Source: Bacteroidales bacterium
Lineage (GTDB): Bacteria > Bacteroidota > Bacteroidia > Bacteroidales > WCHB1-69
Length of the DNA: 32,537 bases
Assembly (NCBI GenBank): GCA_028684405.1
Contig: JAQUGA010000004.1
Location: 1-32,537, forward strand
Direction: 5' to 3'
Shown here: piece after piece, positions 9,687 through 30,711 of the stretch
Numbering within the stretch: the stretch's first letter is position 1
How the letters are laid out: each line of letters opens with the position of its first letter
Position numbers and translations under genes: made by a program
Notes under the pieces: model-generated
Told to the model about the DNA's origin: nothing
The model's database searches: none
The model's input: the letters and a program-made list of their open reading frames with translations, nothing else

Positions 9687-11810
9687 ATGAAAAGAAAAAT
9701 TATAGTTGGCTTATTAATGATGTTTTTAGCATTAAACTTCGTATTTAGTGCCTCTGTTGATAGAGAGAAAGCAATTAAAGTTGCCCAGAATTATTTAGCA
9801 GAACGCTATGCAGCCAGAGGACTTGAAGTTCCCCTTGCTTTTGAAATTAAATCCACAGACATTATCTATAATTCGACAGGTGATTATGCAATTATGTATG
9901 TTGTAAACCTCATTCCTCAAGGATTTGTATTGATTAGTGCCGATGATAGAGTATTGCCTGTTTTGGGTTATTCTCATCAGAACTTTATGGATATCAATAA
10001 CATGGCTCCTTCTAATAAATATTGGTTAGGTGGCTACGAAATGCAAATTGAATACGCTATTAAAAATGATTTAGAAGCAGATCATAAAACAATAATGGAT
10101 TGGGATCGTTTGTCTGTAGATAATTTTGTGGTTCAAACTCCTAAAAGCATTGCAGTGGTTGGTCCACTCATGGATTTTCCTTGGGGTCAAGGGCGTTTTT
10201 ACAATCGATTGTGTCCTGAAGACCCCGAAGCTCCCTCTGGTTATGATGGACGTGTTCCAAACGGTTGTGTTGCTTTGGCAGCATCCTTGATTATGTATTA
10301 TCACCGTCATCCTGAAATGGGAACTGGCTCACATTCCTATTATGCCAGCGGATATGGCACTCAAAGTGCAAATTTTGGTGCTACAAGCTACGATTGGAAT
10401 GCAATGACCAATCAATTGACCTTCTACAATACCAATGTAGCCCGTTTAATTTATCATCTGGGCGTTGCTGTAGAAATGGGTTATGCTGCTGAAGGTTCTG
10501 GCTCTCAAACTCAATATACTGAAACGGCCTTGAAAAACTATTTCAAATACTCAAACACAATTACTACCAGAAGCAGATATTTGCAAACAACTTCCGCTTG
10601 GATTGCTTTGTTGAAGCAAAATCTAGACATTGATCGTCCCATGATATATTCGGGTAGAAGTCAGGCTAGTGGCGGACACGCATTTAATTGCGATGGTTAT
10701 GATGATGTCGATTATTTCCATTTTAATTGGGGATGGGGCGGATATGGAAATGGATATTACATCATATCAGATTTAAATCCCGTAGGAAATGACTTTAACT
10801 CATACCAACAAGCCGTTGTAAATATTTTTCCAGCAAATCCTGCTAATTCTTGTCCATCTCTAAAAACATTGACAGCCTCAAGCGGTTCCATTTCCGATGG
10901 TAGTGGATCCAATCGATATGGTCATAATTTAGATTGCCGTTGGTTAATCGCTCCCGAAAATGCTGCTTCAATTGCGATTTCTTTTTCCCGATTTAAAACT
11001 CAATTAAACAATGATATTGTTACTATTTATAACGGGGAATCGACCAATGATTCCGTTGTTGGAAGTTATTCAGGAACAACGATTCCGAATGATATTACGA
11101 TTCATGGTCCAAAAGCATTGGTGCGTTTTCAAACGAATAATTCAGTTGCCGATCAAGGCTTTTTGTTAAATTATAAAGCAAGTCATCAAACAACGTTTTG
11201 TGCTTCTACAAAGATTATTACAGCGCCAACGGGAACAATAAGCGATGGTAGCGGAGAACATAAGTATAACAATAACACATATTGCAGATGGTTTATTCAG
11301 CCTGCCGGAGCAACTTCCTTGACTCTTACTTTTAATAGCTTTGATGTGTCTCCAGAAGATGAGGTTTTGGTTTACAATCGTGCTGCAAGTCCAGTTGAAT
11401 TAATAGCCAAGTTCAGCGGAGCAAATTTGCCTCCAACAATTGTTATTCCATCTGGAAAATTGGCCGTTGAGTTTATTTCAGATAACTATAGTGTTGCTAA
11501 TGGATGGGACGCTACGTGGACTTCCACTGGTACTGCTTCAGGTATTCAAAATATGGATGGAATTAATCAAATGTCAGTTTTTCCCAATCCAGCAAATAGT
11601 GAGTTAAATATTCAAATTGCTAGCGAGTTTCTTATAAATGCAAACTTAAGTATTACTGATTTAACTGGAAAAAAATTATTTGAAGAGAATGTTTCTGTAT
11701 CTGATGTTTATAATTACAAATTGAATGTGAGTAATTACAGTAAAGGAATGTATTTTGTGACCCTGAAAAACGAAACAGGAACGATGATTTTGAAATTTAT
11801 TAAACATTAA
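9687..11810 (+). CDS. C10 family (streptopain-like) cysteine protease with two CUB-like domains and T9SS type A sorting domain
   Basis: Pro-domain-like N-term (VDREKAIKVAQNYLAER...GFVLISADDRVLPVLGYS); PNGCVALAASLIMYYHRHP (Cys) and SGGHAFNCDGYDDVDYFHFNWGWGGYGNGYY (His/Trp). Two repeats CPSLKTLTASSGSISDGSG...CRWLI and CASTKIITAPTGTISDGSG...CRWFI; C-term MSVFPNPANSELNIQ...GMYFVTLKNETGTMILKFIKH. Confidence 0.9.
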   Translation: MKRKIIVGLLMMFLALNFVFSASVDREKAIKVAQNYLAERYAARGLEVPLAFEIKSTDIIYNSTGDYAIMYVVNLIPQGFVLISADDRVLPVLGYSHQNFMDINNMAPSNKYWLGGYEMQIEYAIKNDLEADHKTIMDWDRLSVDNFVVQTPKSIAVVGPLMDFPWGQGRFYNRLCPEDPEAPSGYDGRVPNGCVALAASLIMYYHRHPEMGTGSHSYYASGYGTQSANFGATSYDWNAMTNQLTFYNTNVARLIYHLGVAVEMGYAAEGSGSQTQYTETALKNYFKYSNTITTRSRYLQTTSAWIALLKQNLDIDRPMIYSGRSQASGGHAFNCDGYDDVDYFHFNWGWGGYGNGYYIISDLNPVGNDFNSYQQAVVNIFPANPANSCPSLKTLTASSGSISDGSGSNRYGHNLDCRWLIAPENAASIAISFSRFKTQLNNDIVTIYNGESTNDSVVGSYSGTTIPNDITIHGPKALVRFQTNNSVADQGFLLNYKASHQTTFCASTKIITAPTGTISDGSGEHKYNNNTYCRWFIQPAGATSLTLTFNSFDVSPEDEVLVYNRAASPVELIAKFSGANLPPTIVIPSGKLAVEFISDNYSVANGWDATWTSTGTASGIQNMDGINQMSVFPNPANSELNIQIASEFLINANLSITDLTGKKLFEENVSVSDVYNYKLNVSNYSKGMYFVTLKNETGTMILKFIKH

Positions 11811-22865: not shown

Positions 22866-22918
22866 ATAAAATATACATCAAATAGTTGTTTAATATCAAT
22901 TTGCCAAAAACATCTTTT

Positions 22919-25093
22919 ATGAAAACAAAATCTTTAATAATTGCTTCCTTTTTCGTGTTTATTTCCGTTTATTCTTTTGCTCAAACTCGCTACAGTGTCA
23001 GTTTTGATGAACTAAGGAGCAAACATCAACAAGGTTTTGATATTTCGGAAAAGCATCAAACATTTACGGAAAATAACATACGTTTTGTTTCGGTGATTGC
23101 TCAAATAGATTCTCATTTTTCGGAACAAATTTTGGCAGAGAATAATATTATTTTACGTTCAAAAGTAGGAGATATCGTTACTCTTTTTGTGCCCGAAGAG
23201 CTTGTTTTACAAAAACAAACCATTCCTGGAATTCTATACATTGAAAAGCCACGAAAAATATCTCAAAATCTCCATAAAGTAGTTAAAGATGCTCGGATTG
23301 ACAGTGTTCATCAGGGCATAAATTTGCCTTCTGGATTTAGTGGGAAAGATGTTATTATTGGCATCACCGATTGGGGATTTGATTATACGCATCCCATGTT
23401 TTATGATACTTTACTGCAACACAGCCGGATTTTAAAAGCCTGGGATCAGTTTAAAGAATCTGGACCTGCTCCTCAGGGTTTTACTTATGGTACTGAATTT
23501 GTTGGTGAATCAGAATTGTTGGCAGCTCAGTGTGATACTATGAATATTTATGACTTAGCAACGCATGGATCACATGTTGCCGGAATTGCGGGTGGGAGCG
23601 GTGCTGGAACCAAATACAGAGGAGTGGCTTACGATGCCAATTTTATGTTTGCTACTTTCTTAATTGATGAAGCAGCTGTTTTAGATGCTTTTAGTTGGAT
23701 GAAAGAGAATGCCGAAATCTATCAAAAACGCTTGGTCGTCAATATGAGTTGGGGATTGTATTGGTTTGGAACTTTGGATGGAAATTCACTTTTGAGTCGT
23801 GCTATCGACACTATGTCGTCACAAGGAGTCGTTTTTGTCACCAGTGGAGGCAATAACGGTGATGAAGATTTGCATTTGAAAAAAGTTTTTTCAAATATGC
23901 AGGATACGTTAAAAACAGTAGTTGGTTTTGATATGTATTCATATTATTCAAAAATGTGGGGACAAGCCATTACCATGTGGGGAGAGGAAGGTGTTGATTT
24001 TCAAATAGAAATCCATGTTGCCGATAATTCTTATCAGACTTTGGCTCAATCAGTTCCAATTCGTACTTCAGATTTGAATGGATTTTTTGAAGATTTTTTG
24101 ATTGTAAATCAGGATACGGTTTTTTATAACTATATTTTAGAATCTGAAAATCCATTAAATCAACGCCCTCATATTCATTTGCGGATTAGCAATCGAAATT
24201 CGTCAAATAAAATTGTATTGAAGGCCAATGCACACTCAGGAACTTTACATATGTGGAATGTTATTGAGTTAACAACGGGTGTAGGCAATTGGGGAAGTCC
24301 CTTCTTGTCACCCAATTCAGAATATACTGCTGGCGATTCCTATTACAGTATCGGAGAACCGGCTTCAGCGCGTTCGGTCATCAGTGTGGCAGCCCACAGC
24401 AATGAAGCATTTTTACCAAACGGAACTATGGTAGGTGGCTATATTGCCCCGTTTTCAAGTAAAGGACCTACGCTGGATGAGCGCGTGAAACCCGATATTT
24501 CGGCTCCAGGAGTTGGTGTTGTTTCTTCAATTTCATCTTTTACAACGCAAAGTTTTTCGTCCATTGATATCGTTGAATCGGTCTCTTTTGGTGGTCGAAA
24601 TTATCCTTTTGTGAAATTTTCGGGCACTTCCATGTCTGGGCCTGTTGTTGCTGGAGTGGTGGCTCTAATGCTTGAAGCAAATCCAACTTTAAGCTCGCAA
24701 CAAATTAAACAAATTTTATTGGAAATTGCCCGTGAAGATATAAGAACAGGAACGATTCCTGAAAATGGTTCCACGCAATGGGGCTTTGGCAAATTAAGTG
24801 CGTATTCGGCCATCAAAAAAGCTTTAGAAACGCAGCAAGTAAGCTATTATCAGAAAAATGATGCTTGTATGATTTTTCCAAATCCAGCGAACAGCTATTT
24901 TTCTTTGATTTATGATTTGAATTTTAAACCATCGGAAATTATTATTTATGATACGATGGGAAAAATGTGCTATAGTAGTGTTTATATTTCTGATAATGTT
25001 GATGTTGGTTTTCTAAAAGAGGGTTTTTATTTTGTTTGCATTCAATCAGAAAACAATCAGATATCTGTTCAAAAATTAGTCAAAAAAAAGTAG
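22919..25093 (+). CDS. S8 family subtilisin-like serine peptidase with T9SS type A sorting domain
   Basis: Triad context: VIIGITDWGFDYTHPMF (Asp), DLATHGSHVAGIAGGSGAG (His), FVKFSGTSMSGPVVAGVVALMLE (Ser). C-term CMIFPNPANSYFSLIYDLN...GFYFVCIQSENNQISVQKLVKKK. Start MKTKSLIIASFFVF at 22919. Confidence 0.92.
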   Translation: MKTKSLIIASFFVFISVYSFAQTRYSVSFDELRSKHQQGFDISEKHQTFTENNIRFVSVIAQIDSHFSEQILAENNIILRSKVGDIVTLFVPEELVLQKQTIPGILYIEKPRKISQNLHKVVKDARIDSVHQGINLPSGFSGKDVIIGITDWGFDYTHPMFYDTLLQHSRILKAWDQFKESGPAPQGFTYGTEFVGESELLAAQCDTMNIYDLATHGSHVAGIAGGSGAGTKYRGVAYDANFMFATFLIDEAAVLDAFSWMKENAEIYQKRLVVNMSWGLYWFGTLDGNSLLSRAIDTMSSQGVVFVTSGGNNGDEDLHLKKVFSNMQDTLKTVVGFDMYSYYSKMWGQAITMWGEEGVDFQIEIHVADNSYQTLAQSVPIRTSDLNGFFEDFLIVNQDTVFYNYILESENPLNQRPHIHLRISNRNSSNKIVLKANAHSGTLHMWNVIELTTGVGNWGSPFLSPNSEYTAGDSYYSIGEPASARSVISVAAHSNEAFLPNGTMVGGYIAPFSSKGPTLDERVKPDISAPGVGVVSSISSFTTQSFSSIDIVESVSFGGRNYPFVKFSGTSMSGPVVAGVVALMLEANPTLSSQQIKQILLEIAREDIRTGTIPENGSTQWGFGKLSAYSAIKKALETQQVSYYQKNDACMIFPNPANSYFSLIYDLNFKPSEIIIYDTMGKMCYSSVYISDNVDVGFLKEGFYFVCIQSENNQISVQKLVKKK

Positions 25094-28625: not shown

Positions 28626-28663
28626 TGACAAAATATTTGTCAGAATCAATTTTGAAATTGATT
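28626..28663 (+). promoter_or_regulatory. two adjacent operator-like inverted repeats upstream of mini-lipoprotein copy 1
   Basis: TGACAAA-ATA-TTTGTCA (28626-28642) and AATCAATTT-TG-AAATTGATT (28644-28663), both with perfect arms, ending 6 nt before the -7 box. Confidence 0.5.
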
Positions 28664-28669
28664 TTTATT

Positions 28670-28677
28670 TATATTTG
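28670..28677 (+). promoter_or_regulatory. putative -7 box (TATATTTG) for mini-lipoprotein copy 1
   Basis: Matches TAnnTTTG, 24 nt upstream of the ATG at 28702. Confidence 0.45.
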
Positions 28678-28701: not shown

Positions 28702-28923
28702 ATGAAAAAAACTTTAGTTCTTTTAACTGTTTTTGCAATTTCTGCTATTGCTATGAGCTCATGCAAAAAAGATTATGTTTGCGAATGCAATTATACAAGC
28801 TATTTAGGAACACCCGAACGTGCCGAAATACCGTATAATAATTCAACCAAAAGCCAAGCAGAGGATGCATGTACTAACTATTCTATGCCAGGTGCAAAAA
28901 ACTTTGATTGCAAATTAAAGTAG
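28702..28923 (+). CDS. small Cys-patterned lipoprotein (paralog 1)
   Basis: MKKTLVLLTVFAISAIAMSSCKKDYVCECNYTSYLGTPERAEIPYNNSTKSQAEDACTNYSMPGAKNFDCKLK: lipobox SSC, CxC motif, two later Cys, terminal CKLK. Start revised from 28606 by alignment to paralogs. Confidence 0.75.
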   Translation: MKKTLVLLTVFAISAIAMSSCKKDYVCECNYTSYLGTPERAEIPYNNSTKSQAEDACTNYSMPGAKNFDCKLK

Positions 28924-28964
28924 AAAACACAAAGCTCTTGAATTCATTAAGAGCTTTGTGTTTT
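28924..28964 (+). terminator. terminator hairpin of mini-lipoprotein copy 1
   Basis: AAAACACAAAGCTCTT-GAATTCATT-AAGAGCTTTGTGTTTT, 16-bp perfect stem. Confidence 0.85.
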
Positions 28965-29063
28965 AATAAAGGTTAAAACGATATTTTAAAGCATCAATGT
29001 GGAAACTGATGTTTGTTTTCGTTTTAATTACTAATTTTACTGCCTTTCGTTGAAAACCCATTT

Positions 29064-29815
29064 ATGAAACGACATCAATTTAAACACGATATAGACCTTC
29101 CGCTACGAACCGTTGAACATCGTGATTTGATTTTGTCTAACAAGTATTTGAAGAAGACTTATGAAGAATGGTACTCATATTTGATTGATGCTTTGCCCGA
29201 ACTGGATGGCGATGTTTTAGAAATTGGATCTAGCGGTGGTTTTTTAAAGCAAATATTGCTCAGGTAATTACTTCTGATATTTTAGAACTAGATTATTGCG
29301 ATATGTGTTTTTCGGCTGAAGATTTGCCTTTTCAAGATGAAACATTGTCGACTATACTGATGGTGAATGTTTTACATCATATTCCAAATCCTGAAAACTT
29401 TTTTTCGGAAGCACAACGTTGTTTAAAACCAGGTGGTAAAATTTTGTTTATTGAACCTACAAGGACTTTATTAAGTCGGTTTTTTTATAAAAAAATCCAC
29501 CATGAGCCATTTGATGATAAAGCATCTTGGCAATTACAGCCGGGAAGCCCAATGTCAAACTCAAATCAAGCTACTCCATGGATGATTTTAAAACGAGATG
29601 AAAAAAAATTTGATGCTCTTTTCCCAAAATTATTACGCATAAAGTACAAGGTTTTAATGCCTTTTAATAATGTTCTTTCGGGTGGCTTATCGTGGCAGCC
29701 ATTGTTGCCACTTTGGATGTATTCTGCGGTACGTTTTTTTGAACGAATTTTAAGCCCTTTTTCATCTATTATTGGTTTTTTTGCATTTGCCGAAATTGTT
29801 AAAATTGAAAAATAG
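29064..29815 (+). pseudogene. class I SAM-dependent methyltransferase, frameshifted
   Basis: ORF 29064..29267 ends DVLEIGSSGGFLKQILLR*. The +1 frame continues from CAG 29261 as QVITSDILELDYCDMCFSAEDLPFQDETLSTILMVNVLHHIPNPENFFSEAQRCLKPGGKILFIEP... One missing base near 29258-29260 joins the SAM motif I half with the motif II/III half. Confidence 0.85.
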
Positions 29816-30066
29816 TTTATTTTGTTTACAATTATTATCTTTCAGTTCACACTATTTAATGCGTACGTTAAAGAAATGAAGGTTTTAAAGCAGCAATTTT
29901 TTGTAAAATATGCATTTTCTATGTATTGCCGAATTTTTTATTAAACATTTTTTTTCCGTTTAGCCTAGGCTAGAGCCATAAACAAAACATGAATTCAAAT
30001 AGTTTTTCCTCTTAATATATAAAAATAATAATTTGTCTAAGTATGTTTTTTAGATGATATTTTATA

Positions 30067-30074
30067 TATATTTG
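30067..30074 (+). promoter_or_regulatory. putative -7 box (TATATTTG) for mini-lipoprotein copy 2
   Basis: Matches TAnnTTTG, 29 nt upstream of the ATG at 30104. Confidence 0.45.
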
Positions 30075-30103
30075 TGGAATTAAACCAAATAAAAAATTAA
30101 ACT

Positions 30104-30325
30104 ATGAAAAAAACATTAATCGTATTCGGATTTGTAGCTTTTGCTGCTATTGCAATGAGTTCATGTAAAAAAGATTATACATGCGAATGTACAACTACTA
30201 TGCCTGGGCTTGCTCCGCAAACTACCACAACCGTAATTAATGCGAAAAAAAGTGATGCTAAAACAACATGTGAAAATGGAAGTCAAACCGTAATGGGAAT
30301 TGTTACTGTTTGTAAACTAAAGTAA
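30104..30325 (+). CDS. small Cys-patterned lipoprotein (paralog 2)
   Basis: MKKTLIVFGFVAFAAIAMSSCKKDYTCECTTTMPGLAPQTTTTVINAKKSDAKTTCENGSQTVMGIVTVCKLK; same length (73 aa) and Cys pattern as copies 1 and 3. Confidence 0.8.
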   Translation: MKKTLIVFGFVAFAAIAMSSCKKDYTCECTTTMPGLAPQTTTTVINAKKSDAKTTCENGSQTVMGIVTVCKLK

Positions 30326-30334
30326 CATAAATTT

Positions 30335-30367
30335 AAAAAAGCTCTTGAAAAATTCAAGAGCTTTTTT
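30335..30367 (+). terminator. terminator hairpin of mini-lipoprotein copy 2
   Basis: AAAAAAGCTCTTGAA-AAA-TTCAAGAGCTTTTTT, 15-bp perfect stem. Confidence 0.88.
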
Positions 30368-30412
30368 GTTTTTGTTACCCAAAATGATATCTACCTAAAT
30401 AGTTGTTTTTTA

Positions 30413-30420
30413 TACATTTG
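30413..30420 (+). promoter_or_regulatory. putative -7 box (TACATTTG) for mini-lipoprotein copy 3
   Basis: Matches TAnnTTTG, 27 nt upstream of the ATG at 30448. Confidence 0.42.
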
Positions 30421-30447
30421 AGGATGCAAAAACAAGAAATCTATACT

Positions 30448-30669
30448 ATGAAAAAAACATTAGTTATTTTAAGCATTTTCGCAATTACTGCTATCTCTAT
30501 GAGCTCTTGCAAAAAAGAATATGTTTGTGAATGCACATCTAATTATGCGCAATCGCCTCCCTCCAATTATTCAAAAATAATTTATGCAACTAAGTATGAA
30601 GCTAAATTAGAATGTGAAAATACAAATGAAACCGTATTTAATACAATTATGACATGTAAATTGAAATAA
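30448..30669 (+). CDS. small Cys-patterned lipoprotein (paralog 3)
   Basis: MKKTLVILSIFAITAISMSSCKKEYVCECTSNYAQSPPSNYSKIIYATKYEAKLECENTNETVFNTIMTCKLK; start revised from 30403 by alignment to paralogs. Confidence 0.78.
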   Translation: MKKTLVILSIFAITAISMSSCKKEYVCECTSNYAQSPPSNYSKIIYATKYEAKLECENTNETVFNTIMTCKLK

Positions 30670-30711
30670 GTTTTAAGCTCTTGTACTTTAAGTGCTTTAA
30701 ACCTATTGCTT

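Follow-up and report, generated by a model that had tools for sequence, protein, structure and literature searches.

Four-cysteine lipoproteins of Bacteroidia and their gene linkage to MauE-thioredoxin fusion proteins, candidate enzymes for disulfide formation

Three genes for very small lipoproteins lie close together near one end of the window (the whole stretch of DNA analysed, 32,537 nt, from a Bacteroidales bacterium of the WCHB1-69 lineage), and the locus raises the question of what these proteins are, why each keeps the same set of cysteines, and which other proteins they work with. A first-pass annotation had described three lipoproteins of the same length sharing a lipobox and a CxC...C...CKLK pattern, which translation and alignment bear out. 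The three open reading frames encode 73 residues each from the ATG codons given in Table 1, copies 2 and 3 are 46-47% identical to copy 1, and 26 alignment columns are invariant, all five cysteines included. Common to the three copies are an N-terminal MKKTL, the lipobox (AIAMSSC in copies 1 and 2, AISMSSC in copy 3) followed by KK[DE]Y.C.C...C...CKLK, the segment CKK[DE]Y.CEC, one cysteine in the helix region, and the C-terminal CKLK. Positive residues at the N-terminus, a hydrophobic stretch and the lipobox cysteine (MKKT...AI[AS]MSSC) give all of them the features of signal peptidase II substrates. Chance likeness among the copies is excluded, since copy 3, used as the query against the entire assembly (2.62 Mb, 87% complete), retrieved the other two at E 3e-17 and 1e-12; no fourth family member was matched by this search.

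The lipoprotein region consists of three single-gene units, each with its own promoter-like box of the Bacteroidetes TAnnTTTG -7 type (Table 1). The spacing between these boxes and the ATG codons indicates that the 73-residue starts are right and that translation is unlikely to begin at the mechanically called starts of the longer ORFs. A TAnnTTTG box was also present within 100 nt upstream of 57 of 125 homologues, where shuffled sequences lead one to expect 9.2, and this excess suggests that single-gene promoters are usual for the family. The hairpins after copies 1 and 2 are strong and related to each other. Some 30 nt upstream of the promoter box of copy 1 lies a near-palindrome, TGACAAA-ATA-TTTGTCA (28,626-28,642), a possible operator that was not seen ahead of the other two copies. 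Between copies 1 and 2, a methyltransferase ORF (PF08241; 29,064-29,815) is read in two frames, split near 29,267 by either a frame break or an assembly error.

Copy 1 is under purifying selection and evolves as a real gene, with a dN of 0.084 and a dS of 0.458 against its orthologue in the same neighbourhood of a sister genome. Moreover, the tree joins copy 1 to homologues of its own genus and family (support 100/86) and pairs copy 2 with copy 3 (77/74), from which it follows that at least two duplications made the set, the last one in tandem.

Table 1. Features of the lipoprotein region (window positions) and phage-borne members of the family (positions on their own viral contigs)
Feature	Position	Strand	Details
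Lipoprotein copy 1, 73 aa	28702..28923	+	ATG at 28702; lipid Cys21 = 28762-28764; C27, C29, C57, C70
Lipoprotein copy 2, 73 aa	30104..30325	+	ATG at 30104; lipid Cys21 = 30164-30166; C27, C29, C56, C70
Lipoprotein copy 3, 73 aa	30448..30669	+	ATG at 30448; lipid Cys21 = 30508-30510; C27, C29, C56, C70
TATATTTG -7 promoter box, copy 1	28670..28677	+	32 nt upstream of ATG
TATATTTG -7 promoter box, copy 2	30067..30074	+	37 nt upstream of ATG
TACATTTG -7 promoter box, copy 3	30413..30420	+	35 nt upstream of ATG
Hairpin after copy 1, 18-pair stem, probable terminator	28924..28964	+	-23.2 kcal/mol, z -8.3
Intrinsic terminator after copy 2, 16-pair stem and T run	30334..30368	+	z -6.2
Weak hairpin after copy 3, resembling the other two in degenerate form	30670..30702	+	z -3.2
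Phage-borne family members, single genes	L143:3303-3554, L144:5983-6195, L145:5962-6168		phage genes confirmed

At E <= 0.01, a profile built from the three copies had matches in 48 of 99 relatives and in 87 of the 198 genomes sampled from the class Bacteroidia; as the weakest of these are signal-peptide matches, only the 53 class genomes that match at about E <= 2e-6 are counted here as family genomes. When 84,980 species were scanned, 245 relatives emerged, the best 80 of which are all from Bacteroidota where the record names the group, and a phylum-wide search at 1e-7 found the family in at least 3 of 297 genomes. The family is widespread in Bacteroidia, very common yet unnamed, often with 2-13 copies per genome, often in tandem, and with a single copy in many genomes. 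The first-pass annotation had recognised no named family, and the search for a characterised one that matches the mature part ended in the same place: Pfam, NCBIfam and PHROGs returned signal-peptide matches only. The PG1828 family lipoprotein (NF050142) was rejected at 14.5-18.4 bits against a curated cut-off of 50; its likeness (E 0.003-0.04) lies in the signal peptide and lipobox and stops at residues 23-30. Outside the sorting region and the cysteines, little is conserved in the family besides one alanine and one lysine. No paper on a four-cysteine lipoprotein family of Bacteroidia was found in the open-access literature, and the present analysis gives, to our knowledge, its first structural and genomic description.

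Exactly four non-lipid cysteines (C1-C4) occur in 109 of 110 mature homologues extracted by requiring the CxC only, and the remaining one adds an extra pair; the cysteine positions, whose common order had been noted in the three copies, are thus conserved across the family. In a wider set of 175 lipoproteins, selected without regard to cysteine pattern, the CxC is aligned in 161, and the non-lipid cysteines number four in 166, two in 4, six in 2 and five in 3, an even count in 172. The four two-cysteine paralogues, from two Brumimicrobium genomes, keep C1 and C3 and have lost C2 and C4, a joint loss that may be one ancestral event. Taken together, the even counts and the joint loss point indirectly to oxidised cysteines paired as C1-C3 and C2-C4 (C27-C56 and C29-C70 in copy 2). 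The two disulfides proposed in the first-pass annotation are supported by this pattern, and the pairing C1-C4/C2-C3 suggested there gives way to the one predicted here. The Brumimicrobium arrays (L064:4681-6721 and L077:5587-6234) mix four-cysteine and two-cysteine paralogues and offer a natural series for disulfide mapping.

AlphaFold2, given 110 aligned sequences, confidently predicted for the mature part of copy 2 a ββαββ domain (pLDDT 95.2), with strands at 3-12, 19-27, 41-43 and 46-52 around a helix at 29-37; strand 1 carries C1 and C2, the helix C3, and the last strand C4. A fold search with this model in the PDB and a viral structure library returned nothing at E <= 0.001, and unnamed phage proteins of 55-70 aa were matched weakly. 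With respect to location, the surface export signal of Bacteroidetes lipoproteins is C-X-K-(D/E)2-X, or SDDDD / SDDFE, after the lipid cysteine (PMC5080379). In the copies, C-K-K-[DE]-Y places a lysine at +3 and a single acid at +4, so that the second acidic residue of K-(D/E)2 is missing. The signal being incomplete, surface display, the first half of the earlier "surface or periplasmic", is doubtful, and from the sorting sequence a periplasm-facing orientation appears at least as likely.

The proteins encoded around 80 family loci were clustered all against all, with no prior choice, and the two commonest neighbours were both membrane proteins with thioredoxin-like CxxC domains, an association that is new. 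The first, found at 22 loci, is a protein of about 310 aa in which a MauE domain (PF07291), with the invariant CxC of an NCxCFG motif, is followed by a domain with a CxxC, often CPHC, that is invariant in 15 aligned partners; it is called MauE-CxxC below. PF07291 scored 66.5-75.9 bits against a gathering cut-off of 27 for three partners, the one from the window's own genome included, and the match was missing in two of four cluster members scanned. The C-terminal domain of the partner has a predicted thioredoxin fold (AlphaFold2 and Foldseek; best E 2e-5, probability 1.0), the closest structures being MPT53, ResA, TlpA and DsbE. The second neighbour (15 loci) has about 200 aa, with helices and a thioredoxin-like domain carrying CPYC or CPFC. 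Genes of both kinds lie mostly directly downstream of the lipoprotein gene. Furthermore, of 20 regions taken from relatives, chiefly members of the bacterial family to which the window belongs, 11 showed MauE-CxxC adjoining CxC...C...C lipoproteins. Most of these lipoproteins have diverged beyond the reach of the family profile, and the linkage consequently tracks the cysteine pattern where similarity fades.

In an independent test, a MauE-CxxC profile was run against the 198 class genomes and the coordinates were compared with those of the family profile matches. Strong matches lay within 1.5 kb of a family gene in 32 of 45 cases, usually at 70-190 bp and in 14 families, where the rough random expectation is about 0.4%. 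MauE-CxxC was present in 40 of the 53 family genomes and in 3 of 144 others (Fisher p 8e-27, uncorrected for kinship), and the spread of the linkage over 14 families makes shared descent alone an unlikely cause, again with kinship uncorrected. MauE-CxxC cannot be the sole maturase, since it is absent from 13 of the 53 family genomes; both partner types are absent from 10. In the window's own genome, the MauE-CxxC gene (NCNCFG and CQHC) is on another contig (C107, 8275-9186), with no four-cysteine lipoprotein gene beside it, and the redox linkage went unnoticed at first because this partner gene lies outside the window.

The known generators of envelope disulfides are DsbB and VKOR. DsbB was found in none of the 198 class genomes and VKOR in 12 (absent from 186), none of which was a family or a MauE-CxxC genome (one-sided p 0.02 and 0.05, respectively, uncorrected for kinship); neither enzyme was matched in the window's own genome (87% complete). 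MauE-type proteins as a whole occur in 169 of the 198 genomes. The BT_3928 family protein (NF045576) has the same MauE-type N-terminal domain as MauE-CxxC, which matches it in the N-terminal half only (2.5e-16; 59.8 bits against a cut-off of 250). Copies of BT_3928 length, one of which is encoded on contig C45 of the window's own genome, look like a second, far more widespread MauE type in Bacteroidia, and BT_3928-type MauE is a candidate general oxidase of the class.

In this context, we hold with moderate confidence that these proteins are disulfide-stapled outer-membrane lipoproteins and clients of the MauE-thioredoxin oxidoreductase. Each protein, lipidated at Cys21 and cleaved by signal peptidase II, would consist of a 53-residue ββαββ domain on a lipid anchor, held by a staple from the first CxC cysteine to the helix cysteine (C27-C56) and another from the second CxC cysteine to the C-terminal one (C29-C70). 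Both disulfides would be introduced by the membrane enzyme, which joins in one chain the MauE-type helical domain (NCxCFG) and a thioredoxin-fold domain in the periplasm (CPHC or a similar motif), and the electrons would probably pass through the MauE CxC to the membrane; in other lineages its place may be taken by the second, shorter membrane protein, whose thioredoxin-like domain has CPYC or CPFC. The variable surface of the folded lipoprotein domain would probably bind another envelope protein at the outer membrane. Against the client reading counts the separation of enzyme and lipoprotein genes in the window's own genome, and, since the closest solved relatives of the thioredoxin domain (ResA, TlpA, DsbE) are mostly reductases, the redox reaction may run in either direction.

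A parallel is provided by MauD/MauE, which serve the maturation of methylamine dehydrogenase: there, too, a MauE-type membrane domain and a thioredoxin-like part adjoin the gene of a disulfide-containing envelope protein, but here a single polypeptide combines the two, and its neighbour is a very small lipoprotein with four cysteines. No paper on MauE in disulfide formation of Bacteroidetes was found in the open-access literature, and for bacteria that lack DsbB and VKOR such a MauE-thioredoxin system is apparently undescribed. As most sampled Bacteroidia lack both enzymes, the pairing is of interest for bringing together, in two neighbouring genes, a candidate enzyme and a candidate substrate that is small and could serve as an easily assayed reporter. 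Small lipoproteins of a second type, CxKCxxC...C...C, also lie near MauE-CxxC genes (L063:4936-5232, reverse strand; L134:7314-7583, forward strand; L181:1417-1641, reverse strand) and are perhaps another client family.

The same linkage could be read with the lipoprotein as carrier instead of client, its CxC pair serving to exchange electrons or disulfides between MauE-CxxC and proteins of the outer membrane. The constant company of thiol-disulfide enzymes, the CxC aligned in most homologues (161 of 175), the scarcity of other conserved residues, and the many single-copy genomes are all consistent with such a role; nevertheless, the four paralogues that lose the second CxC cysteine together with C4, keeping C1 and C3, fit two separate staples better, and up to 13 diverged copies per genome would be odd for a carrier, which leaves this reading unlikely. 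A bolder version, which we consider quite unlikely, would make the MauE-CxxC fusion a one-chain DsbA-DsbB that forms disulfides de novo in Bacteroidia without DsbB or VKOR, and the four-cysteine lipoproteins a lipid-tethered relay carrying them to the outer membrane.

Another possibility is superinfection exclusion of the Llp/Cor kind, in which the lipoprotein would block phage entry by binding a TonB-dependent receptor on its periplasmic side, chromosomal copies being domesticated defence genes. One member of the family occurs on each of three viral contigs that also bear genes clearly of phage type (portal; virion structural protein; DnaB, Sak4 and exonuclease; Table 1), on L144 as a lone gene on the strand opposite to its neighbours. 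In Llp of phage T5, likewise a very small lipoprotein of the outer membrane, a Cys11-Cys58 disulfide joins the two termini; Llp resembles the family in size and lipid anchor and, should the predicted pairing hold, in a disulfide near the C-terminus, although a single disulfide is reported for it (PMC9586334). The Cor PHROG was matched weakly by 11 of 20 members (best 3e-4), but this match was lost with the mature sequence alone and reflects signal-peptide similarity. With Llp at E 0.52 in a sequence search of the PDB, homology of the mature part to Llp or Cor was rejected. We know of no redox gene partner of Llp or Cor, whereas the neighbours of the present family are redox genes. Phage-borne members are also rare: 2.9 million viral contigs yielded just 4 loci, a second viral scan added no contig, and one such member used as the query matched none of 50,697 named phages. 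Since close orthologues are, in addition, under purifying selection, we regard the exclusion role as improbable.

A metal site (Zn, Fe or Cu), raised in the first-pass annotation and suggested by four conserved cysteines in a tiny domain, is very improbable, given that cysteines are lost or gained in pairs (2, 4 or 6 in 172 of 175), that the linkage is to thiol-disulfide enzymes, and that no recognisable metal transport gene is among the recurrent neighbours of the 80 loci. Some bacteriocins are folded by a dedicated oxidase, and tandem paralogues with variable middles beside a folding enzyme recall a secreted or surface toxin, bacteriocin or signal peptide family; that reading is highly unlikely in view of the lipobox of the copies, the lack of a recurrent immunity or export gene near the 80 loci, and purifying selection between close orthologues.

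Elsewhere in the window, a secreted cysteine-peptidase-like protein (9,687-11,810) and a subtilisin-like protein (22,886-25,093) each have an end that resembles a type IX secretion tail.
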